64,000 nucleotides of DNA, taken from positions 20,003 to 84,002 of IMG/VR virus record IMGVR_UViG_3300009149_000019. One strand, written 5' to 3'. Below are positions 12,757 to 56,711 of the stretch, piece by piece; positions within the stretch are counted from its first letter, which is position 1, and each line of letters opens with the position of its first letter. The position numbers and the translations under genes are program-made. This DNA comes from a virus. The notes under the pieces are model-generated. The model was not told the DNA's origin and searched no databases. It was given only the letters and a program-made list of their open reading frames with translations.

Positions 12757-15165
12757 ATGAGATTATCCAGCCTTGTGGAAAAGTCTTCCTGTACAGATAA
12801 AAAGCAATCATCTTGTCAGAAATGTCCTTTAAGCACACGACAGTTTATCCCACCTATACTGCATGATAACAGTAATATCCTTATGGTGGGAGATATACCT
12901 GTAAAAGATGAGTCTGACGCTGGTAGGCCTATTGCTGGTAAGGCTGGAAAGATTCTTAAAGAATACCTGGACATCCATGGCATCGACAGGGATACCGTAT
13001 CCGTTTCGAATGTGGTCAAATGTAGACCAGATGAAAAGGATACCTTCAAGGTAAACCACATAACTGAATGTGGTGACCGATTTTTGGCGAATGAGGTCTC
13101 CTCCCTGAAGAGTCTTAAGCTAATAGTGTTGCTGGGTAAAACAGCGTTCAGCTACTTTTTTAATAAGGGAAATTATGCAAAGAGCTGCGGACATTTCATG
13201 GCTGGGCACGGCGCTACCTTCTTCTGTATGTTACCACCCTCTCAGGCTTATAAAAGAGAAGAGGAGTTCTCCAATGACATTAAGAAGATAAAGCTGTTTC
13301 TAGATGGGGCTTTATTTACTGATAGGAATTACATCGTTGTTGACTCCATGGACAAACTGAAGGCTGCGGAACAGACCCTTTCACAGTATGACACCCTGTC
13401 TATTGATATCGAAACAAATATTATTCCAAAGAGACGAGAGATAAAACCTCTAACCTTAAAGACATTTGCGATATCTCCAGAAAAGAATGTGTCATACGGA
13501 TTCTATATGGAGTGTGATAAGACGATATCCCCCAGGTATCATCAAGAAGCGTGGAGGATGCTGTCTTCTTTTCTTGTGAACCCGAAGATAAAAAAGGTGT
13601 TCCATAATGCAGCCTTCGAGTGTAAGCAGTTCAGGCTGAGAGGATGCAACCCAGTAAACTATGATGACACCATGATAGAAGCATTCCTCTTAGATGAAAA
13701 TAGACCAATCAACTTGAAGGAGCTTGCACACACCTATACTGAGGGGTATAAGAATCTTATCTCAGGATTCAATCAGACCACAGAAAAATTACTGGGTTAC
13801 AATATGGAAGATGCAGACCTAACACTGCAGCTCCACACTCAGTTTAAGCCGGCCCTTATAAAAAATAAGGGGTTGTTGTGGATATATGATAACCTGATGA
13901 TACCTGAGACTTACCTCTTTCCAACTATTGAGATGAACGGTGTGCTGTTTGACACCGATTACGCTCTTGAGCTCAACAGAGCTCTTTCTGTTGATGTAGG
14001 GCAGCTAGAGGCTTCTATATTCGGAAAGTATCCTATGCTGAGGAACACGAATCTTGACTCCCCTAAGCAACTGGCCGCATTTATGTTCGGTGTACTTGGG
14101 CTTAAGCCTAAATCTGAGACGCCCACAGGGAGACCTTCTTTAGCCAAGAACGACCTCACCCTTTTTAAAGAGGATGGTGTTGTACTAGCTGAGTGGATAT
14201 TGGAAAGGAGAGTAGTGAAAAAGCTGATCTCTACTTATGTGAAGGCTCTTCCTAATTTGTTAGGAGATGACAGTAAGTTAAGCTCTTCGTACTCCACAAC
14301 AACAGCTAAGACTGGAAGGGCTGCGTCGTCAAAGCCAAATCTTCAGAACATCCCTCGTGACAAAAGAGTTAAGAACACGTTTACTCCTGATCCCGGTAAT
14401 GTGTTTCTCCAAGGTGACTTCTCCCAGGCGGAATTACGGATAGCAGCTTCGATAGCAGATGAAAAGAGAATGATTGACATCTATAGAAATGATGGAGACA
14501 TTCATCGGCTAACTGCATCGATTGTTGCCGGAATCCCCCTCGCAGAGGTAACCAAGATACACAGACAGTCAGCTAAGGCTGTTAACTTCGGCTTTATATA
14601 TGGTATGGAGGCTCTCGGGTTTAAATCCTATGCTAAACAGGACTATAACGCGGAGTTTACAGAGAAAGAAGCTATACGGGCACGGGAGCTATATTTTGAG
14701 AACTACTCGGCATTAGCACCATGGCACGCTCGTGTAAAAAGGTTTGCTGAAAAGCATGGATACGTGGTATCTCCTCTTGGAAGAGTACGACGTTTACCTG
14801 ATGCACAGAACCATACAGACTTCAAAAAGAAAAGTTCTGCGTTAAGACAGGCCCTTAATGCACCAGTACAGGCGACCGCTGCTGATCTTACAGCATACAC
14901 AATGATCAGAGCTCAGCGGTTCTTAGAAAAAATGGACATGAAGAGTAAGTTAGTTCTAACTGTACACGACTCTATCGTGTTCTCAGCAGTGCCTGAAGAA
15001 GTTGAGGCTCTGGCAATGTTCCTTACAGATACGGTAACCTCTCTAGAAAGAAAATTTTCATGGTTAACTGTTCCGATGAAGATGGATTTTGAGATTGGTG
15101 ACCGGTGGGGAGCACTAAGAGAATGTTCAAATATTGAACAGCTGCTTCAATATCTGCAACTCTGA
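12757..15165 (+). CDS. Uracil-DNA glycosylase (family 4-like) fused to DNA polymerase I
   Basis: 802 residues. Residues 1-190: family-4 UDG-like domain with CQKCPLS, GDIPVKDESDAGRPIAGKAG, NVVKCRPDE and ITEC, giving the four Fe-S cysteines. Residues ~205-370: 3'-5' exonuclease (LSIDIETN, FHNAAFECKQFRL, DADLTLQLH). Residues ~400-802: family A polymerase with motif A QGDFSQAELR (~551), motif B KAVNFGFIYG (~607) and motif C TVHDS (~735). This is the replicative polymerase. A UDG-like domain on Pol I is known from SPO1-type phages; here the cluster cysteines are intact but the catalytic Glu/Asp region differs from GEAPG, so glycosylase activity is uncertain. Confidence 0.93.
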   Translation: MRLSSLVEKSSCTDKKQSSCQKCPLSTRQFIPPILHDNSNILMVGDIPVKDESDAGRPIAGKAGKILKEYLDIHGIDRDTVSVSNVVKCRPDEKDTFKVNHITECGDRFLANEVSSLKSLKLIVLLGKTAFSYFFNKGNYAKSCGHFMAGHGATFFCMLPPSQAYKREEEFSNDIKKIKLFLDGALFTDRNYIVVDSMDKLKAAEQTLSQYDTLSIDIETNIIPKRREIKPLTLKTFAISPEKNVSYGFYMECDKTISPRYHQEAWRMLSSFLVNPKIKKVFHNAAFECKQFRLRGCNPVNYDDTMIEAFLLDENRPINLKELAHTYTEGYKNLISGFNQTTEKLLGYNMEDADLTLQLHTQFKPALIKNKGLLWIYDNLMIPETYLFPTIEMNGVLFDTDYALELNRALSVDVGQLEASIFGKYPMLRNTNLDSPKQLAAFMFGVLGLKPKSETPTGRPSLAKNDLTLFKEDGVVLAEWILERRVVKKLISTYVKALPNLLGDDSKLSSSYSTTTAKTGRAASSKPNLQNIPRDKRVKNTFTPDPGNVFLQGDFSQAELRIAASIADEKRMIDIYRNDGDIHRLTASIVAGIPLAEVTKIHRQSAKAVNFGFIYGMEALGFKSYAKQDYNAEFTEKEAIRARELYFENYSALAPWHARVKRFAEKHGYVVSPLGRVRRLPDAQNHTDFKKKSSALRQALNAPVQATAADLTAYTMIRAQRFLEKMDMKSKLVLTVHDSIVFSAVPEEVEALAMFLTDTVTSLERKFSWLTVPMKMDFEIGDRWGALRECSNIEQLLQYLQL

Positions 15166-15182
15166 TATTTCACTAAAAAATA

Positions 15183-15212
15183 TTTCCCTTCTAATAAAGA
15201 ACCTGTTATTAT
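15183..15212 (+). promoter_or_regulatory. Possible promoter with extended -10
   Basis: TGTTATTAT (15204-15212) is an extended -10 element. The -35 at 18-base spacing is poor (TTTCCC, 15183-15188). It sits in the 88-base gap before the gene at 15254, a plausible place for a promoter in this recombination block. Confidence 0.4.
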
Positions 15213-15253
15213 AGATTTGCTGTAAAAAGCAAAAAACATAGTAGGAGGTTCTT

Positions 15254-15751
15254 ATGCTGTTAGAAGGCATGCAGGACATCAAGTCCACCTTCTATCTCCA
15301 AGTCGACGGTGAGTTAACTGAGGTAGAAATTAGTCTGGAGAAGGTCTTCGTCGTCAATGAGCACGACATCAAAGGTGAGTTGCTGAGGCACGCTTCCATT
15401 GTTGCCTGGTTTGGTATGATCCACAATTCATATCAGCAGAATCTTTCTGCCCTTAGAGGTGAGCAGAAAATAATGGATGCAGAGCTCTATGGTGAAAAGA
15501 AAACCATTCTTGAGAGTGCCGGAGCCAGAGCTACCGTTGATGGTATCAAGGCGGAAGTAATCATTGACGCTCGTATGCAGGCAATGAATAAGCGCATACG
15601 GGACACAGAGTCGGATGTAGGCGCATTGTTCGCAATTAAGAACGCACTCGACCACAAAAAGGATATGCTTATCCAGCTTGGTGGTTTACACAAAAGGGAA
15701 ATGGATCTCCAATCCCTCCTGGATTTGCAATCAGTCCATGGAGGTGCATAG
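15254..15751 (+). CDS. Helical protein, possible UvsY-like recombination mediator
   Basis: 165 residues behind GTAGGAGG. After a short beta N-terminus (~35 residues) the protein is a long alpha-helical/coiled-coil region with the RIRDTESDVGALFAIKNALDHKKDML pattern typical of small phage recombination mediators. It lies between DNA polymerase and the SSB and RecA genes, where T4-like phages place related functions. The UvsY assignment rests on composition, size and neighbours, not on a clear motif. Confidence 0.6.
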   Translation: MLLEGMQDIKSTFYLQVDGELTEVEISLEKVFVVNEHDIKGELLRHASIVAWFGMIHNSYQQNLSALRGEQKIMDAELYGEKKTILESAGARATVDGIKAEVIIDARMQAMNKRIRDTESDVGALFAIKNALDHKKDMLIQLGGLHKREMDLQSLLDLQSVHGGA

Positions 15752-15769
15752 GTAAACACACAAAATTTC

Positions 15770-15798
15770 TTGTATTACCGGTAACCGTGTGGTAACCT
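15770..15798 (+). promoter_or_regulatory. Promoter with overlapping GGTAACC direct repeat
   Basis: TTGTAT (15770-15775), 17 bases, then TGG-TAACCT (extended -10, 15793-15798). Two direct copies of GGTAACC (15780-15786 and 15791-15797) are spaced 11 bases, one helical turn, and overlap the -10, like an operator. A small hairpin GCGCA/TGCGC (15806-15821) would lie at the start of the transcript. It would drive the SSB gene. Confidence 0.5.
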
Positions 15799-15845
15799 AG
15801 CACTAGCGCACAACAATGCGCAAAAAACAAACGGAGGTACATCTC

Positions 15846-16784
15846 ATGGCTGGTCTCAACATCGAGGCGTTCAAGCAACAAATGGCAGGAAAGAAAAAAA
15901 CGCAGTACTGGTCCTTTAAGGACGGGTCTAATTACATTCGTGTATTGCCAAGGTCTATTCAGTACTACTCTCCTGAAGGGGATTGTGAGTTCTCCTTCCA
16001 TTATTTTAGGCACTACCGTGTGTCTGAGACAGAATCGATCGTATGTCCAAAATCCCCACATATAGGGCGGCCTTGTCCTATTTGTGAGAAGATTAAACTT
16101 CTTTGGGATTCCACGGATCCAGAGGATCATCACCTAGCTCGTCAGATTAAGAAGACGAAAAGGGTTCTCTGTAATGTCATAGACATGGACAGCGTCGAAG
16201 CAGGTATCCAGGTTCTGGAAACAGGGCCTCAGGTTTATTCTGAGGTTGCAAAGTGGGTAGTTAACCCTAAATGGGGCGATTTGTTTGACATAACACAAGG
16301 AAGATCCATTACTGTTGACAAAAACCCACCAAAAAACAAGAATGACTGGACAAAGTACGTGGTGACTCCTGATCCAGAACCTACTTCTGTTAAAGAAGTA
16401 CTTCCACCATCATGGCAGGATGACATTAACCTGCTTGAGTCAAAACTCCCTCTTGCTAAGTCTTATGAGGAAATTATGCGTGTCATGCATCCTGATGGAG
16501 ACTTTCCTGCAGCTAATCATGGAGTGTCTCAGGGCAGCTTCGTTCCTGAGGGGATAACAACCAGAACAGTGGCTAATCCTCCTGCGAAGGCTGAGGAACT
16601 TGTTGTTGAGGAAGAGCTTGCGGTTGAGTACGGCGAGGAAGAGGAGCAGGCACCGCCAACACCAAGAAAAACCAAAGCCCCAGAATGTTTTGGTAAATCT
16701 TATTCTCCCAAGTCGAAGACTTGTATTCCGTGCCCAAGTGAAGTGAAGGACAAATGCTGTGACGCGTTCCTTCATAGCGACTAA
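15846..16784 (+). CDS. gp32-like single-stranded DNA-binding protein
   Basis: 312 residues from ATG 15846 (CGGAGG upstream; the in-frame ATG 15816 lacks a site). The N-terminal half has an OB-type T4 gp32-like layout: YWSFKDGSNYIRVLP near residue 22, then CPKSPHIGRPCPICEK, a Cys/His zinc-site-like cluster. An acidic region (EEELAVEYGEEEE, ~255-270) is like the protein-recruiting tail of SSBs, but it is followed by an extra ~45-residue Cys-rich end (CFGKSYSPKSKTCIPCP..CC). It coats ssDNA for replication and recombination beside RecA. Confidence 0.85.
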   Translation: MAGLNIEAFKQQMAGKKKTQYWSFKDGSNYIRVLPRSIQYYSPEGDCEFSFHYFRHYRVSETESIVCPKSPHIGRPCPICEKIKLLWDSTDPEDHHLARQIKKTKRVLCNVIDMDSVEAGIQVLETGPQVYSEVAKWVVNPKWGDLFDITQGRSITVDKNPPKNKNDWTKYVVTPDPEPTSVKEVLPPSWQDDINLLESKLPLAKSYEEIMRVMHPDGDFPAANHGVSQGSFVPEGITTRTVANPPAKAEELVVEEELAVEYGEEEEQAPPTPRKTKAPECFGKSYSPKSKTCIPCPSEVKDKCCDAFLHSD

Positions 16785-16796
16785 GGGGGACAATCC

Positions 16797-17936
16797 ATGG
16801 CAAAGATGTCCATCGCTCAGGCCGTAAGAAAAACAGTTCGACAGATTCAGGCATCATCAGATATCGCTGTTCCTTTTTATGTGGATAGTGGTAACTATGC
16901 GCTTAATTACATCGTATCGGGGTCCTTTTTTAAAGGATACCCCGCTGGGAGGATTACCGAACTGTTCGGAACACAGTCGACTGGCAAGTCTCTGCTAATA
17001 ACGCAGGCTATCGCTAGTGTTCAAAAGATGGGTGGAATCGCTATACTAGACGATTCTGAAAGAACGTTTGATCCATTTTTTGCTGAGAAGGTTGGAGTAA
17101 ACGTAGAAGATCTACTCATCCTAAATTCTCAGACCTTGGAGGATTTCAAAGATCCGGAAAATCCTAAGGAGATGATTCCCGGTCATTATACATCAATAAT
17201 GACTACAGTAAAGGCAATCAGAGAGCAGGATCCAAACATTCCTATACTGATTGCTCTTGACTCCATAGCCATCCTTACGACTGCTCATGAAAAGGAAGTA
17301 GGGCTGTCAAAAGTTGACATGTCCAAGGCTAAAATGGTTCGTCAGTTCATGCGACTACTTACTCCAGAAGCAGATAAATATAAGCTTTGCTATCTGGTAA
17401 GTAATCATGTTACTGCAAGTATGGCCTTGTACGGTAAATCTACAACCACGACTGGTGGTTCAGGAGTTAAGTACCAGTCTTCTGTCAGACTTGAACTGAA
17501 GACTAAGGGAAAGATTCTAGGTACTACTGGAAAGGTTAAAGGTGTCAATACCCATGTAGCATGTGAGAAATCTAAAATAACAGCACCACACAAGCAATGT
17601 CAGGTAGAGGTGCTGTTTGATATTGGCATGTCAACACTCTCAGGTGTTACAGACATGTTAATAGTAGAGGAAGTTATCGTTCAAGAAGGACCGGGATGGT
17701 TTGTAATCCCTGGTATTCTTGATAAAAAGACTCGTCGAAAGGACATTGAAGACATGATGACCAACGACATAGACTTTCTCAAACGAGTAGCAGACAAGGC
17801 TAAGCATGCTACTCAGAGTGCCAACATTTCGGAAAAAGATTTTGCTGTACCGGAAGGCACTCCTGCCCAGGACCCTTCTGTTGAACAAGCAGAAGATGCA
17901 CCCTCTCCCACAAAAAAGGGAGGAAAAAGCAAGTAA
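16797..17936 (+). CDS. RecA/UvsX recombinase
   Basis: 379 residues. Walker A GTQSTGKS at residues 58-65, preceded by GYPAGRITELFG, then ILDDSERTFD (the RecA DAE strand), Walker B ILIALDSIA, and NHVTASM followed by the glycine-rich TTTGGSGVKYQSS loop. These are all RecA-family ATPase signatures. It catalyses strand exchange on SSB-coated DNA. The C-terminal ~45 residues are acidic and Pro-rich, ending in a basic KKGGKSK. Twelve bases after the SSB gene, one-base overlap with the nuclease gene that follows. Confidence 0.95.
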   Translation: MAKMSIAQAVRKTVRQIQASSDIAVPFYVDSGNYALNYIVSGSFFKGYPAGRITELFGTQSTGKSLLITQAIASVQKMGGIAILDDSERTFDPFFAEKVGVNVEDLLILNSQTLEDFKDPENPKEMIPGHYTSIMTTVKAIREQDPNIPILIALDSIAILTTAHEKEVGLSKVDMSKAKMVRQFMRLLTPEADKYKLCYLVSNHVTASMALYGKSTTTTGGSGVKYQSSVRLELKTKGKILGTTGKVKGVNTHVACEKSKITAPHKQCQVEVLFDIGMSTLSGVTDMLIVEEVIVQEGPGWFVIPGILDKKTRRKDIEDMMTNDIDFLKRVADKAKHATQSANISEKDFAVPEGTPAQDPSVEQAEDAPSPTKKGGKSK

Positions 17937-18454
17937 TGAATTCAAAGGCTAAGGGCAACAAGTACGAGCGGGATGTTGCCCGTTTTTTGACAAGATGGAT
18001 AACTGGTAAGGATAACCCCTTACTATTCTGGAGATCAACATCATCAGGGGCGTTCTGGACAACATCACGTTGTGCAGAAGGCCAGGCTGGTGACATCTCT
18101 GCTGTACACGTAGACGGACAGTGGTTTATTGACCAGTACACTATTGAGTGTAAGTCTGTCGCCCCCATTAAATTTGATCTCGGTCACACAGGCGACCTGG
18201 AGAAGTTTTGGGGTCAGGCGATTAATCAGGCACGAGGGATTGATAGAGAACCTCTTTTGTTTCTTAAACGGAACAATCGTAAGGAACTCTTTGGTTGCTC
18301 CGCCAGAATCGGTAGATTCTTTACAGATCGCCTGTCTGCGAGTATAGTTATCTGTTTTGCAGAGTTCAAACCTGAGCCCTTAGCCTTGTTCCTCACGTCA
18401 GATGTTCAGGGAGTACCATTCTCTGAGTTTAAGAAGTTCACCGAAACAAATTAA
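17936..18454 (+). CDS. Hjc/RecB-like nuclease, probable Holliday-junction resolvase
   Basis: 172 residues, start overlaps the RecA stop (TAATG). The N-terminus KAKGNKYERDVARFLTRW matches the first helix and Glu of archaeal Hjc/PD-(D/E)xK nucleases; the core shows GDISAVHVDG and TIECKSVAP (D...ExK), with a following LLFLKRNN strand. Position straight after RecA suggests it cuts recombination intermediates. The nuclease fold is well supported, the junction specificity is inferred. Confidence 0.75.
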   Translation: MNSKAKGNKYERDVARFLTRWITGKDNPLLFWRSTSSGAFWTTSRCAEGQAGDISAVHVDGQWFIDQYTIECKSVAPIKFDLGHTGDLEKFWGQAINQARGIDREPLLFLKRNNRKELFGCSARIGRFFTDRLSASIVICFAEFKPEPLALFLTSDVQGVPFSEFKKFTETN

Positions 18455-18472
18455 AGTAAGTAGGAGGATCTT

Positions 18473-18670
18473 ATGCCTATATTAAAGGAGATCTCTGTTT
18501 CCTATGGAAGGAAATGTACGAGAAACTATCAGACAATGGATCTGCTCATAGCAGAATCTTACACTATGGAGGAGGGTGAGGACATTGAGGTAGTTAAGGA
18601 GGAGTTGATGAATCAACTTATGAGGACAGTTGATCGTCGAATCCTGGCTCATGCAAAAGATGAGCTGTGA
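18473..18670 (+). CDS. Small acidic hypothetical protein
   Basis: 65 residues behind GTAGGAGG. Acidic helical second half. No family recognised. Lies in the recombination block, between the nuclease and a helical protein. The 88-base gap after it holds an imperfect GTGTGGCTGG / CCAGTCACCAC hairpin. Confidence 0.6.
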   Translation: MPILKEISVSYGRKCTRNYQTMDLLIAESYTMEEGEDIEVVKEELMNQLMRTVDRRILAHAKDEL

Positions 18671-18758
18671 GGTGTGGCTGGCCTAGAGACCAGTCACCAC
18701 AAGATGAAAAAGTGCTTTAAGAAAGATCAGAGTTCGTTTCTGATTAGGAGGAAAATCA

Positions 18759-19181
18759 GTGGTTACCAAAATCCTATCTTATGCTCCGAGGATTGCTTCC
18801 CTTCTTAGAATGGGAAGTCAGGTTTGGCAGGCTATTGTTCAGGCGATTCAGAAGAAAAGATCGTGGCTCATAAAGTCTGCTGAGGTAATTGAGTGTATTA
18901 GCGTTGCTCTGGAAGTAGGCTCCGCTTTTCTCTCAGCTGGAAAAGGGTTCGTAAGGGATGTGGTCACTGTGAGAGCATTGTCCACACTGAACCAAGTAGC
19001 TGAAAAAGCGCAGGCTTTTGCAGACTACTGTAAGACATCAGCCTCTGAATGGGTAACTGAGACAGGAGAGAGCTGTCTCGAATTCCTTGACAAAGTGACT
19101 GAAACCATGGATACTGTTAGAACTGAGCTTGACAACATTAGGGTTGCGTGCCTAAGAGGCTCATTTCAGGTAGTATCCTAG
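18759..19181 (+). CDS. Helical hypothetical protein (GTG start)
   Basis: 140 residues starting at GTG 18759, six to eight bases after TAGGAGG. Amphipathic helices throughout; residues 42-65 are Ala/Val-rich and could be a weak membrane segment or a hydrophobic core helix. No family recognised. It precedes the SbcC-like gene by 18 bases. Confidence 0.65.
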   Translation: MVTKILSYAPRIASLLRMGSQVWQAIVQAIQKKRSWLIKSAEVIECISVALEVGSAFLSAGKGFVRDVVTVRALSTLNQVAEKAQAFADYCKTSASEWVTETGESCLEFLDKVTETMDTVRTELDNIRVACLRGSFQVVS

Positions 19182-36258: not shown

Positions 36259-36984
36259 ATGAAAGCGATTTATTTTACTCGTGGGAGGGCAAAAGAATAC
36301 TGTGAGTGCGCCATTAACATCTATACTGGTTGTGATCATGGCTGCACGTATTGCTATGGTGCGTCCGTCCTTCATATGACACGAGAAAAGTTTGCTAACC
36401 CTGTTACCAGGAATAATCTTATAAACAGTATAAAAAAAGAAGCTCCTGCATTTAAGGGCAAGGAGGTTCAGTTATGCTTTGTCACGGATCCCTATCAGGT
36501 ATTTGATCAGGAGGTTAGACTGACAAGGGAAGTTATTGAGGTTCTCCATGAAAGTGGAGTTAAGGTATCTATTTTGACAAAAGGTGGGAACAGAAGTCTG
36601 GTTGACTTCGATCTCTTTGAGAAGAATCCATCTTTATCTAAATATGGAACTACCCTGACCTTTCTGGATGAAGCTAAATCATTGGAATGGGAACCAGGGG
36701 CAGCACCTCCTGAGGAACGCATAAACGCCCTTCAGAAGGCAAAAGAGATCGGAGTGGAGACTTGGGTCAGTCTGGAGCCAGTTCTCGATCCACAGGCTGT
36801 ATACTCAATAATAGAGAGAACACACACCTTCGTGGATATGTTCAAGGTAGGAACCTGGAATTATCATGAGGACGCCAAGAAGATTGACTGGAAACTTTTT
36901 GGTACAACTGCTAAAGAACTAATGGATCATTTGGGATGTAACTACTATCTCAAAAATGATCTGGTAGAGAAGATGAACGGTTAA
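36259..36984 (+). CDS. Radical SAM protein, SplB/spore photoproduct lyase-like group
   Basis: 241 residues. N-terminal CECAINIYTGCDHGCTYCYG holds the CxxxCxxC motif binding the 4Fe-4S cluster. Next come the LCFVTDPYQ, VSILTKGG and WVSLEPVLDP strands typical of the SPL-like radical SAM group (Rv2578c type). These enzymes cleave SAM to make radicals; phage members may repair DNA or modify another target. Length matches the catalytic core only. Own terminators on both sides. Confidence 0.88.
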   Translation: MKAIYFTRGRAKEYCECAINIYTGCDHGCTYCYGASVLHMTREKFANPVTRNNLINSIKKEAPAFKGKEVQLCFVTDPYQVFDQEVRLTREVIEVLHESGVKVSILTKGGNRSLVDFDLFEKNPSLSKYGTTLTFLDEAKSLEWEPGAAPPEERINALQKAKEIGVETWVSLEPVLDPQAVYSIIERTHTFVDMFKVGTWNYHEDAKKIDWKLFGTTAKELMDHLGCNYYLKNDLVEKMNG

Positions 36985-53671: not shown

Positions 53672-53848
53672 ATGCCTATTTTCGATTACGTATGTGACAA
53701 GTGTGAGAAGGAGTTTGAGCTCCTTGTTGGAGTTGTAGACTCTGAAACAACACTAAAGTGCCCTCATTGTGGGGCATCTACCATTACCAAGAAGATAACT
53801 TCCGGGAAATTTGTTAAGCCATACACGTTTCGCGGGAAGACCTGGTAA
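53672..53848 (+). CDS. FmdB-type zinc-ribbon protein
   Basis: 58 residues starting two bases after the previous stop. MPIFDYVCDKCEKEFELLV and CPHCG give CxxC...CxxC spacing, as in the FmdB/CxxC_CXXC_SSSS putative regulatory family, including the YxCxxC start. Probably binds zinc; such proteins are presumed regulators or chaperones. A terminator follows. Confidence 0.85.
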   Translation: MPIFDYVCDKCEKEFELLVGVVDSETTLKCPHCGASTITKKITSGKFVKPYTFRGKTW

Positions 53849-54526: not shown

Positions 54527-54964
54527 ATGAAAATCAGAACTGGGTTCGTTGCGAACTCAAGTAGTTCTTCATTTATAGTTATGTATGCAAATCTGGAAAA
54601 GGTACGTTCTTCCAGACTGAAACGGGCATTACTGGATAATTCCAAGGCAGCTCAATGTGTTAAAGAGTATATTATGGAAGAGTTAGAGGGTAGAGATAAA
54701 GACAATGATGATCCTGCTATATACACTACTGACTTTATTAGTGTGACTCTTATAAATATACAGGAGTGCTATGGTGGAGAGCTCTGTGAATATACTCATG
54801 CTGATCCTGATGATGACGACAGTTGTGATTGTTCTTGTGAGATAACGGTGCTGGACTGGGATGACCGTAACAAATTGGAAGACTGGTCAAACCGTTTTGA
54901 TCCTCAGTACATTATAATTGATGAGTACCGCAAAGGGGAGATGTCACCATATGAAAATACGTAA
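54527..54964 (+). CDS. SNSSSSSF-tagged protein 1
   Basis: 145 residues. Begins MKIRTGFVANSSSSSFIV. Directly after the tag comes a module copy (RSSRLKRALLDNSKAAQCVK..ELEGRD), then an acidic region with a Cys/Asp cluster (DDDDSCDCSCE, ~110-120). First of five adjacent genes sharing the tag. I recall similar N-termini on uncharacterised proteins of bacteria and phages but no function. Behind CGGGGG; overlaps gene 2 by 14 bases. Confidence 0.8.
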   Translation: MKIRTGFVANSSSSSFIVMYANLEKVRSSRLKRALLDNSKAAQCVKEYIMEELEGRDKDNDDPAIYTTDFISVTLINIQECYGGELCEYTHADPDDDDSCDCSCEITVLDWDDRNKLEDWSNRFDPQYIIIDEYRKGEMSPYENT

Positions 54965-55355
54965 TGGATTCGTTTCCAACTCAAGCAGTTCTTCATTTGT
55001 GATAGTACGATCAAATCTACAAAGAATAACAGACTCCAGGATAAAGCAGCTTTTATTACATAGTGGGCTTCCTGTCCTAGTAAAAGATCAGTGCCGAAAG
55101 GAGCTCCTTCTTAGGGATACAGGAAAAGTAAGAGCTATCCATCAAGATGAATCTTTTGTATGTTCTATTGTGGAAGAGACTGAAGATGACTATACCGACA
55201 ACAGCATTCCAGAAACAATCACGTTGTTTACTATAGGATTTCCTGCTAGTAACATACCACCCAGCATGCGGCTAGGCAGGCATTTTGATGAATTTGATGA
55301 CATCGATTTTGAGAATAACCATTCTCCAGAATTTATCTTTGAGGAGGACCTATGA
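54951..55355 (+). CDS. SNSSSSSF-tagged protein 2
   Basis: 134 residues from ATG 54951 (AAAGGGGAG ten bases upstream; the in-frame ATG 54918 would bury the tag). N-terminus MKIRNGFVSNSSSSSFVI, then a module copy (TDSRIKQLLLHSGLPVLVKD) and an acidic, beta-rich tail. Body is alignable with protein 1 over the module only. ATGA overlap with protein 3. Confidence 0.8.
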   Translation: MKIRNGFVSNSSSSSFVIVRSNLQRITDSRIKQLLLHSGLPVLVKDQCRKELLLRDTGKVRAIHQDESFVCSIVEETEDDYTDNSIPETITLFTIGFPASNIPPSMRLGRHFDEFDDIDFENNHSPEFIFEEDL

Positions 55356-55687
55356 AGGTAAGATTTGGTTTTGTGGCTAACTCTAGCTCTCAGGACTTTG
55401 TCCTACACAATCGTAGGATGACTCAGAGTAAACATAGCATTGATGTAGAGCACAACCTTGGTGATCTAAAGAGTCCCGTATTAAAGAGATTGTTACTTGA
55501 GGATATTCCTGAGGAAGTAAAGGTGGTTATACTCAAAGAGTTTGAGAACAGGAAAGGAAAGTCGGACGATGGCTATGATGATTCTCCTGTGGAGGTTGTT
55601 GTCGTTGAGAGGTCCATGTGCTATGATAGCCATGGTCAGGAAACCTTTGAGGAAGAAGTTATTTATTCGTACCAGGAAATTATTTAG
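55352..55687 (+). CDS. SNSSSSSF-tagged protein 3 (degenerate tag)
   Basis: 111 residues. N-terminus MKVRFGFVANSSSQDFVL, in which the serine run is broken by QD. Module copy follows (LKSPVLKRLLLEDIPEEVKV). Acidic tail. The break may mark loss of tag function or tolerated variation. Confidence 0.78.
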   Translation: MKVRFGFVANSSSQDFVLHNRRMTQSKHSIDVEHNLGDLKSPVLKRLLLEDIPEEVKVVILKEFENRKGKSDDGYDDSPVEVVVVERSMCYDSHGQETFEEEVIYSYQEII

Positions 55688-55695
55688 GAGGTATT

Positions 55696-56385
55696 ATGAA
55701 AGTACGTAACGGGTTTGTATCCAATTCAAGCAGCTCCAGTTTTATAATGGGTAATAGTACAACAGCGTCTGCTATGTATGATCTAATACGAGCAGTGCTT
55801 CGTGATTGCGAGATTTATTTTAACCCAGTCTCAACGTCTGACTATAATTTTATCAGAACGTTTGAGTCTGAATACGAGATCCTTACATGGCTTTCTCAGA
55901 ACTTAGATTGTGACGAACCGCTGCTCTTTAGTGGCACATGTAACTATGAAACGTTCATGATTAAGGACAAGAGCACCGGAAGAATCTTAGTAGACACGTG
56001 TAACAACCATGATTGGACTGGCCTTGACATCATCAACCATAATGATGACGATAACGATGGTACACACCAAAGATACCAGGGTTACGAGGCGAAATATAAG
56101 GATGAGCATTGTGAATTTGGTCCCTGTTCTTCCTGTGAGGAGGCTGAGTGCCCTGACCATATCCAGGACATGGTAGATGGGGATGAAAAAGACCTCGATC
56201 ATCCAAAATACAGGGTTATCTACATAGACGTAAGGACGAGGGCACGTGAGACGGAAGCACTGTATTTCTTTAAGAAATATGCTCATATGGGTTTCTATGA
56301 CAAGATCCCAGGAACAAACAAACCGTGGTCCATAGAGATCCTTGAGCTGCTTGCTCAGGGTGTAGCACAAGAGGAATTTTTATGA
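55696..56385 (+). CDS. SNSSSSSF-tagged protein 4
   Basis: 229 residues, the longest. N-terminus MKVRNGFVSNSSSSSFIM, then a body unlike the other four: mixed alpha/beta with acidic stretches and a Cys cluster CEFGPCSSCEEAEC (~136-149) that may bind zinc. No clear module copy. Behind TAGGAGG. Confidence 0.8.
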   Translation: MKVRNGFVSNSSSSSFIMGNSTTASAMYDLIRAVLRDCEIYFNPVSTSDYNFIRTFESEYEILTWLSQNLDCDEPLLFSGTCNYETFMIKDKSTGRILVDTCNNHDWTGLDIINHNDDDNDGTHQRYQGYEAKYKDEHCEFGPCSSCEEAECPDHIQDMVDGDEKDLDHPKYRVIYIDVRTRARETEALYFFKKYAHMGFYDKIPGTNKPWSIEILELLAQGVAQEEFL

Positions 56386-56711
56386 AAATTCGTAATGGCT
56401 TCGTTTCCAACTCAAGCAGTTCTTCTTTCGTGGTTCCTACAGCCATGTTATCCCCTTTGCAAATTTGGGCAGTCTTAACAAATACACAAACAGATCAAGA
56501 GTACACCAGGCCAATTTGGGAGATTGGTCTGATTGATGGTTACCTGGTCGGGTATACAAGTATGGACAACTATGATATGATAGAGTTCTTAAAGAAGGTT
56601 GGGATTCCTTCCAAAGACATCAGTGGGACTGACCGTTTCTACGGAAGTCTTGAGAGCACATTAGAGTGGTATAAGGATGAAATACTTAATAATCCGAATA
56701 GGAAAGAGTAA
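56382..56711 (+). CDS. SNSSSSSF-tagged protein 5
   Basis: 109 residues, ATGA overlap with protein 4. N-terminus MKIRNGFVSNSSSSSFVV, body unrelated to the others by eye, with an aromatic middle and no Cys. Last of the array. Confidence 0.8.
   Translation: MKIRNGFVSNSSSSSFVVPTAMLSPLQIWAVLTNTQTDQEYTRPIWEIGLIDGYLVGYTSMDNYDMIEFLKKVGIPSKDISGTDRFYGSLESTLEWYKDEILNNPNRKE

Follow-up and report, generated by a model that had tools for sequence, protein, structure and literature searches.

The DNA analyzed here, referred to as the window, is a stretch of 64,000 nucleotides covering positions 20003-84002 of an 84,002-bp virus record. Between positions 54527 and 56711 of the window, five adjacent open reading frames on the + strand start with the pattern MK(I/V)RxGFV(S/A)NSSSxxF, hereafter called the tag. 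Copy 1 (54527-54964, tag residues 1-16 at 54527-54574) encodes a protein of 145 residues, MKIRTGFVANSSSSSF, with the Cys cluster CDCSC. Copy 2 (54951-55355, tag at 54951-54998; 134 residues, MKIRNGFVSNSSSSSF) starts within copy 1. The start of copy 3 (55352-55687, tag at 55352-55399; 111 residues, MKVRFGFVANSSSQDF) overlaps the copy 2 stop, and its serine run is broken. Copy 4 (55696-56385, tag at 55696-55743) encodes 229 residues, MKVRNGFVSNSSSSSF, including a Cys-rich segment, CEFGPCSSCEEAEC. Copy 5 (56382-56711, tag at 56382-56429; 109 residues, MKIRNGFVSNSSSSSF) belongs to the largest tag family, with 48 sequences. Each start in the array overlaps or abuts the stop before it, with ATGA overlaps at 55352 and 56382, and the five genes thus form a translationally coupled operon. 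A 58-residue FmdB-like zinc-ribbon reading frame (53672-53848, MPIFDYVCDKCEKEFELLV) is located just 5' of the array. No match was found in tRNA and Rfam scans of the window, or when an 8-kb region was compared with cultured phages by DNA similarity.

The initial annotation had described these genes as near-identical starts on unrelated bodies. The five tagged reading frames are as described, and the bodies of copies 4 and 5 are unrelated. Copies 1-3, however, have a weak module of about 40-60 residues in common (E 2e-4 to 3e-4 for copy 1 versus 2 and copy 1 versus 3). The copy 4 body has two relatives in other phages of the sampled set; a weak match to LntA_helical fell below the cut-off and was rejected. 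The copy 3 tag reads NSSSQDF. It has lost S14 and S15 and kept K2, R4, V8, N10, S11 and S12. The initial annotation had regarded this copy as a natural test of what is essential, and the six positions kept are indeed those conserved across about 500 tag proteins.

The exact tag pattern is present in at least 118 viral stretches, often as arrays, which reach 11 genes. Its carriers are T4-like and jumbo-sized phages, including cultured phages of Escherichia, Klebsiella, Cronobacter, Enterobacter and Vibrio. It is absent from all 44 virus records that served as controls and had been selected with an unrelated Walker-A codon pattern. A pattern scan of 84,980 bacterial and archaeal species genomes found it in 26 stretches only, indicating that the tag is mainly viral, and together these counts argue that it does not arise by chance. 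A tblastn search with the tag alone gave no match, presumably because the serine run is masked as low complexity. Across all sampled loci we collected 479 unique full-length tag proteins, with a median length of 135 residues and a maximum of 305.

Conservation within the tag is extreme. R4 is found in 99.6% of the proteins, N10 in 99.8%, S11 in 100% and S12 in 99.4%, and K2 and V8 are likewise invariant or nearly so. G6, F7, S9, S15 and F16 are conserved at about 95%, a level partly forced by the search pattern, and S13 and S14 accept T, A or C. The initial annotation had held that selection acts on the tag itself, which agrees with this conservation. It had also considered the coding DNA of the tag to be very similar among copies. 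The DNA shows no special conservation: AGY and TCN codons are both used at S11-S15, in the window as well as in about 500 genes, and AGT, TCA, AGC, TCT, TCC and TCG are all used at S11. The free variation of these serine codons indicates selection on the protein and not the DNA. It also bears on the idea that the tag is a recombination site, a DNA cassette behind which bodies are swapped. Such a cassette would fit the arrays, which reach 11 tag genes and carry many different bodies, and the record-specific tag variants described below could reflect conversion between copies. The codon usage identifies the protein as the conserved object, however, and a cassette would leave unexplained the enzyme linked to the tag. 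We consider it very improbable.

Beyond the tag, the bodies have no residues in common. They range from about 40 to 300 residues and fall into 151 clusters (BLAST E 1e-4), of which about 119 are singletons. The initial annotation had placed the same start on scattered uncharacterized bacterial and phage proteins; it is found on these roughly 150 body clusters in phages and on some prokaryotic proteins. Pfam matched none of 125 body-cluster representatives, so the bodies gave no functional clue. PHROG 7397, a family of unknown function, is the sole PHROG matched by more than one of these representatives. One recurrent family carries a zinc-ribbon-like body, CDVCGxxxxGxDxSLxEAxMxxCxxGHxxC, directly after the tag (L013, L020, L044, L081 and others).

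We modeled copy 5 with 42 of its relatives. Its body is predicted to be a folded domain. Residues 1-9 have pLDDT below 50 and appear disordered, and the first strand comprises residues 14-19. Most of the conserved stretch is therefore flexible in this model, which is what one would expect of an enzyme substrate. A Foldseek comparison with viral models returned nothing below E 1e-3. The tag might still be the opening strand and turn of a single, ordinary but diverged domain family, as the modeled strand at 14-19 and a hydrophobic pair that follows the tag in most proteins would allow. However, residues 1-9 are modeled as disordered even though the most conserved positions are 2, 4, 8, 10, 11 and 12, and about 150 body clusters, with no Pfam match, would have to belong to that one family. 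We therefore regard a single diverged domain as highly unlikely. The initial annotation had named two observations that would count against a functional tag, its being merely such a first strand and its lack of conservation in related phages; the model and the conservation described above speak against both.

A degenerate-codon pattern scan of the whole 84,002-bp record detected exactly six tags, five of them in the window, and the reversed pattern detected none. The sixth tag gene, at record positions 16968-17438 outside the window, belongs to a family of 37 members. It begins at the end of a gene at record positions 15880-16968, also outside the window, which encodes a 362-residue protein with matches to radical SAM and SPASM domains. 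The five-gene array is about 58 kb from this gene. The initial annotation, which had not seen this enzyme, had suggested a common partner of the tag or modification of its serine region. That proposal is probably right, and the partner found is a predicted radical SAM/SPASM enzyme of the peptide-modifying type. The results gave no positive support to the sorting, encapsidation or protease-site roles that the initial annotation had also listed.

In this record, the enzyme gene and the sixth tag gene are sandwiched between genes for a MoxR-type AAA ATPase and a vWA/DUF2201 protein (record positions 14620-18949; locus L005). In Klebsiella phage KP15 (L398), the tag genes KP15_97 and KP15_102 flank the vWA (MIDAS) protein KP15_100. 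The MoxR/vWA pair was found at only 3 of 80 enzyme loci; on this count and a MIDAS motif scan, it was rejected as a constant partner. Two more radical SAM domains in the same record (window 36313-36792 and L005:10282-10764; PF04055 43 and 37 bits) are outside the partner family.

In evolutionary terms, the partner enzyme and the tag behave as a unit. A full-length enzyme (E<1e-110) is encoded in 38 of 50 tag-bearing virus records and in 0 of the 44 controls (Fisher P = 4e-16), among which a single partial match of 29 bits was seen. The enzyme was scored by a specific profile. PF04055 is too loose for this purpose, taking in for example the probable NrdG of RB43; used alone, it also marks 38 of the 50 tag records, the same figure by coincidence. 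Most of the 12 tag records in which the enzyme went undetected may be fragments, although some are long (214 kb, 162 kb).

The association is also seen when loci are selected by the enzyme. A single-query phmmer search with the record's own enzyme matched 45 reading frames, in loci nearly all of which had been chosen by the tag. We constructed an alignment, A1, of 28 members with 35-50% identity to the first, and searched for loci with a closer subset of it, since the whole-family alignment is too diverse. Among the resulting 80 enzyme loci, not all of which are independent, 73 have tag genes within 10 kb by a looser tag definition. The nearest enzyme-tag gap has a median of 258 bp, and 295 tags are located downstream and 51 upstream of the enzyme. 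The strict definition finds tags at 67 of the 80 loci, and all 305 such genes are on the strand of the enzyme. It leaves 13 loci tagless compared to 7 with the looser definition, because it misses tag variants that occur record-wide. Of these 7, four are RB43-type phages with tags elsewhere in the record, L207 has a truncated tag-like start adjoining the enzyme, and L218 and L252 have short flanks or are short records. Tag conservation at the enzyme-ascertained loci is similar to that in the whole set; these loci were not picked by the tag, but their tags were gathered by a similarity score, which somewhat inflates the conservation.

Distant gene pairs and prokaryotes follow the same pattern. 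Among 50,697 phage records, a tag protein of RB43 marks 174 and the enzyme 173, and the two sets are nearly alike in their make-up by organism name. These records largely represent one T4-like group, which counts as one lineage. Its tag and enzyme genes are about 22 kb apart, so that their association is not mere neighborhood. On the basis of the enzyme alone, Vibrio phage D479 and Klebsiella phage CPRSA were predicted to carry tags; 5 and 3 were found. An enzyme match is present in 24 of 25 tag-bearing prokaryote genomes and is strong (E<1e-39) in 23 of them. In 19 of the 26 prokaryote stretches, the enzyme is encoded within the same stretch as the tag.

The enzyme family reached no NCBIfam equivalog and corresponds to PHROG 7293, of unknown function. 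The three cluster cysteines are fully or nearly invariant in A1. Some members have the canonical CX3CX2C motif, and many have an insert in the first spacing. The record's own enzyme has CPRACEHC and scores 18.6 bits against PF04055 (cut-off 29.5), compared to 36-56 bits for most relatives tested. The first half of the SPASM cysteine pattern (CX9-15GX4C) is present in the phage enzyme as C267-X13-G281-X4-C286, with a PF13186 score at the cut-off (21.5 bits). The second half (CX2CX5CX3C) is complete in bacterial members, such as CMNCEHYQFCHGGC in L393, and in most phage members only CRxC or less remains of it. With the first cysteine spacing often altered and the SPASM cysteines reduced in phages, activity of the enzyme is not guaranteed.

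An AlphaFold2 model of the enzyme (pLDDT 90.1) displays a predicted radical SAM fold of the peptide-maturase type. Its best matches among solved structures in Foldseek are SuiB, CteB, TigE, SkfB and anSMEcpe (4k39), followed by ChlB, with E values of 1e-11 to 1e-6. These top matches are all peptide-modifying radical SAM enzymes; viperin and others rank after them. Three strands and no helices precede the first cluster cysteine in the model, suggesting that it contains no complete PqqD-like leader-binding (RRE) domain.

The resemblance to RiPP maturases raises the possibility that the tag is a leader peptide, which only recruits the enzyme to modify the body, in the manner of a classical RiPP precursor. 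A conserved N terminus followed by a variable C-terminal part is the layout of such precursors. However, the bodies are about 40-300 residues long and share none beyond the tag, the one modeled is a folded domain, and the enzyme model is without the complete RRE domain. The invariant N10-S11-S12, in addition, look like a reaction centre. We consider a leader function unlikely, although it is the alternative to which we give most weight.

Tag variants within individual records provide a further view of the enzyme-tag relationship. Four records have private variants in every copy found: GHV/CHV in L246, SLV in L251, DF/DY in L263 and MRTR in L249. Within records, same-variant pairs number 13 at position 6 and 13 at position 7, compared to 0.7 and 0.4 in shuffles, and 0 of 2000 shuffles reach the observed values. 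The enzymes of these four records all deviate in 9 conserved N-terminal columns, whereas 4 of 46 others do (Fisher 3e-4); this test was devised post hoc, on four variant records. Outside these columns, the enzyme does not differ between variant-tag records and others (P 0.31). This suggests that the N-terminal strands of the enzyme may read tag positions 2, 6 and 7. The uniformity of tags within a record could instead stem from gene conversion or duplication. The four records would constitute natural variants of enzyme-tag specificity.

We propose, with a probability of roughly 0.75, that the same virus encodes a radical SAM/SPASM peptide maturase dedicated to the tag, and that this enzyme both recognizes and modifies the tag. 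The tag is all that the putative substrates have in common, the enzyme resembles peptide maturases, and the tag core is invariant and at least partly disordered; from these we infer that the enzyme acts on the tag. The enzyme would grip the flexible, basic N terminus through K2 and R4 and then G-F-V. SAM-derived radical chemistry would then act on the invariant core, N10-S11-S12, or on serines next to it, and the residue changed is inferred to be in N-S-S or a neighboring Ser. Candidate chemistries are oxidation of Ser to an aldehyde, epimerization, or a backbone or side-chain cross-link. One N-terminal modification would thereby be placed on many unrelated accessory proteins, whose folded bodies begin at about residue 14. 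As to its purpose, our best guess, a tentative one, is host-interaction functions early in infection.

In bacterial chromosomes, the tag and the enzyme occur in a different setting. In Veillonella parvula, Lachnobacterium, Acetatifactor, Sulfuricurvum and a Verrucomicrobia MAG, a tag protein of 137-139 residues and the enzyme are encoded beside an NTPase of 845-984 residues (L393:4772-12520, L394:3757-11023, L395:3645-9207, L396:6062-11832 and L397:6284-11014). Most of these operons contain a small protein of about 140 residues, and those in Firmicutes also one of about 310 residues. Four of the NTPases were tested against PADLOC and matched Avs2 models (E 1e-11 to 5e-29); three of these four Avs2-like STAND NTPases begin with a trypsin-like or SMEK domain. 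The Sulfuricurvum operon is followed by SIR2 and HerA genes. Relatives of the NTPase are present in 8 of the 26 tag-bearing prokaryote stretches, and none were found in the phage loci. The phage matches of the bacterial tag protein are tag families as well, with the tag itself adding to those scores. The chromosomal NTPase-tag-enzyme operon looks like an undescribed defense system. To our knowledge, neither a tag protein nor a radical SAM enzyme is a recognized part of Avs.

The bacterial operons are also relevant to the possibility that the tag is a sorting signal. T4 internal proteins carry a short N-terminal sequence that targets them to the capsid. The tag, a short N terminus common to several accessory proteins of large phages, resembles it, and could likewise direct proteins into the virion for packaging and injection, the enzyme gene being linked to it for another reason. 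Against this, the tag is linked to and co-occurs with a single enzyme family in viruses, bacteria and archaea alike, and the chromosomal copies adjoin defense-like NTPase genes, not capsid genes. Such a role is therefore improbable, and distinctly more so than a leader function.

The proposed maturase and its tagged targets resemble known systems in part. RiPP radical SAM/SPASM maturases, including SuiB (streptide), the sactipeptide-type CteB and SkfB, TigE and ChlB, have the same fold, a SPASM-like C terminus and a small conserved partner sequence adjoining their gene. A partner sequence linked to the enzyme is found here too (73 of 80 loci; 38 of 50 versus 0 of 44 records). Unlike RiPP precursors, which are short and consist of leader and core, the targets are varied, apparently folded proteins of about 100-300 residues (median 135, one modeled body folded), several per genome and mostly in phages, with no leader/core layout and no complete leader-binding domain in the enzyme model. 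In anSME/AtsB, as proposed here, one radical SAM/SPASM enzyme acts in trans on a short motif of several full-length proteins. The residue that anSME targets can be Ser, which the Ser-type enzyme oxidizes to an aldehyde. The sulfatase motif, however, lies within one enzyme family, whereas the tag is N-terminal and on unrelated bodies, and the C/S-x-P/A-x-R (CxPxR-type) motif is absent among the conserved tag positions.

In vWA-MoxR and peptide-processing conflict systems, radical SAM/SPASM genes are predicted to modify a peptide encoded nearby; the peptides so predicted lie at the C terminus and carry FxSxx and other motifs (eLife 2020, PMC7159879). The sixth tag gene similarly lies between MoxR-type AAA and enzyme genes on one side and a vWA/DUF2201 gene on the other. 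The tag, however, is N-terminal, and the scarcity of the MoxR/vWA pair at enzyme loci (3 of 80) separates the two arrangements. PHROG 7397 for the tag and PHROG 7293 for the enzyme are existing phage families that match these proteins. Of PHROG 7397, only about the first 20-45 residues match the window proteins, and PHROG records no functional connection of 7397 with 7293. The most that a Klebsiella phage paper mentions is a radical SAM enzyme annotated as peptide-modifying (PMC9960720), and our search of the open-access literature for the tag motif found no paper. Pairs of maturase and target are thus a known kind of system, and a common N-terminal tag on dozens of unrelated phage proteins with one enzyme is, as far as we found, apparently undescribed.

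If the tag is the site of modification, hundreds of anonymous phage proteins, in about 150 body clusters in our sample, would become one functional class with a known modifying enzyme. Radical SAM peptide chemistry would then extend from short natural-product precursors to the common tag of a virus accessory proteome. It is possible, though we put it forward tentatively, that the phage enzyme installs a single radical-made N-terminal modification on a regulon of unrelated proteins, replacing the arrangement of one enzyme per substrate, and that bacteria have built the same enzyme and a copy of one tagged protein into the operon of an Avs-like immune NTPase, where the pair would serve to sense such phages as a decoy or trigger. 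That bacteria have tag and enzyme next to Avs-like NTPases would then point to an arms race over the same modification.
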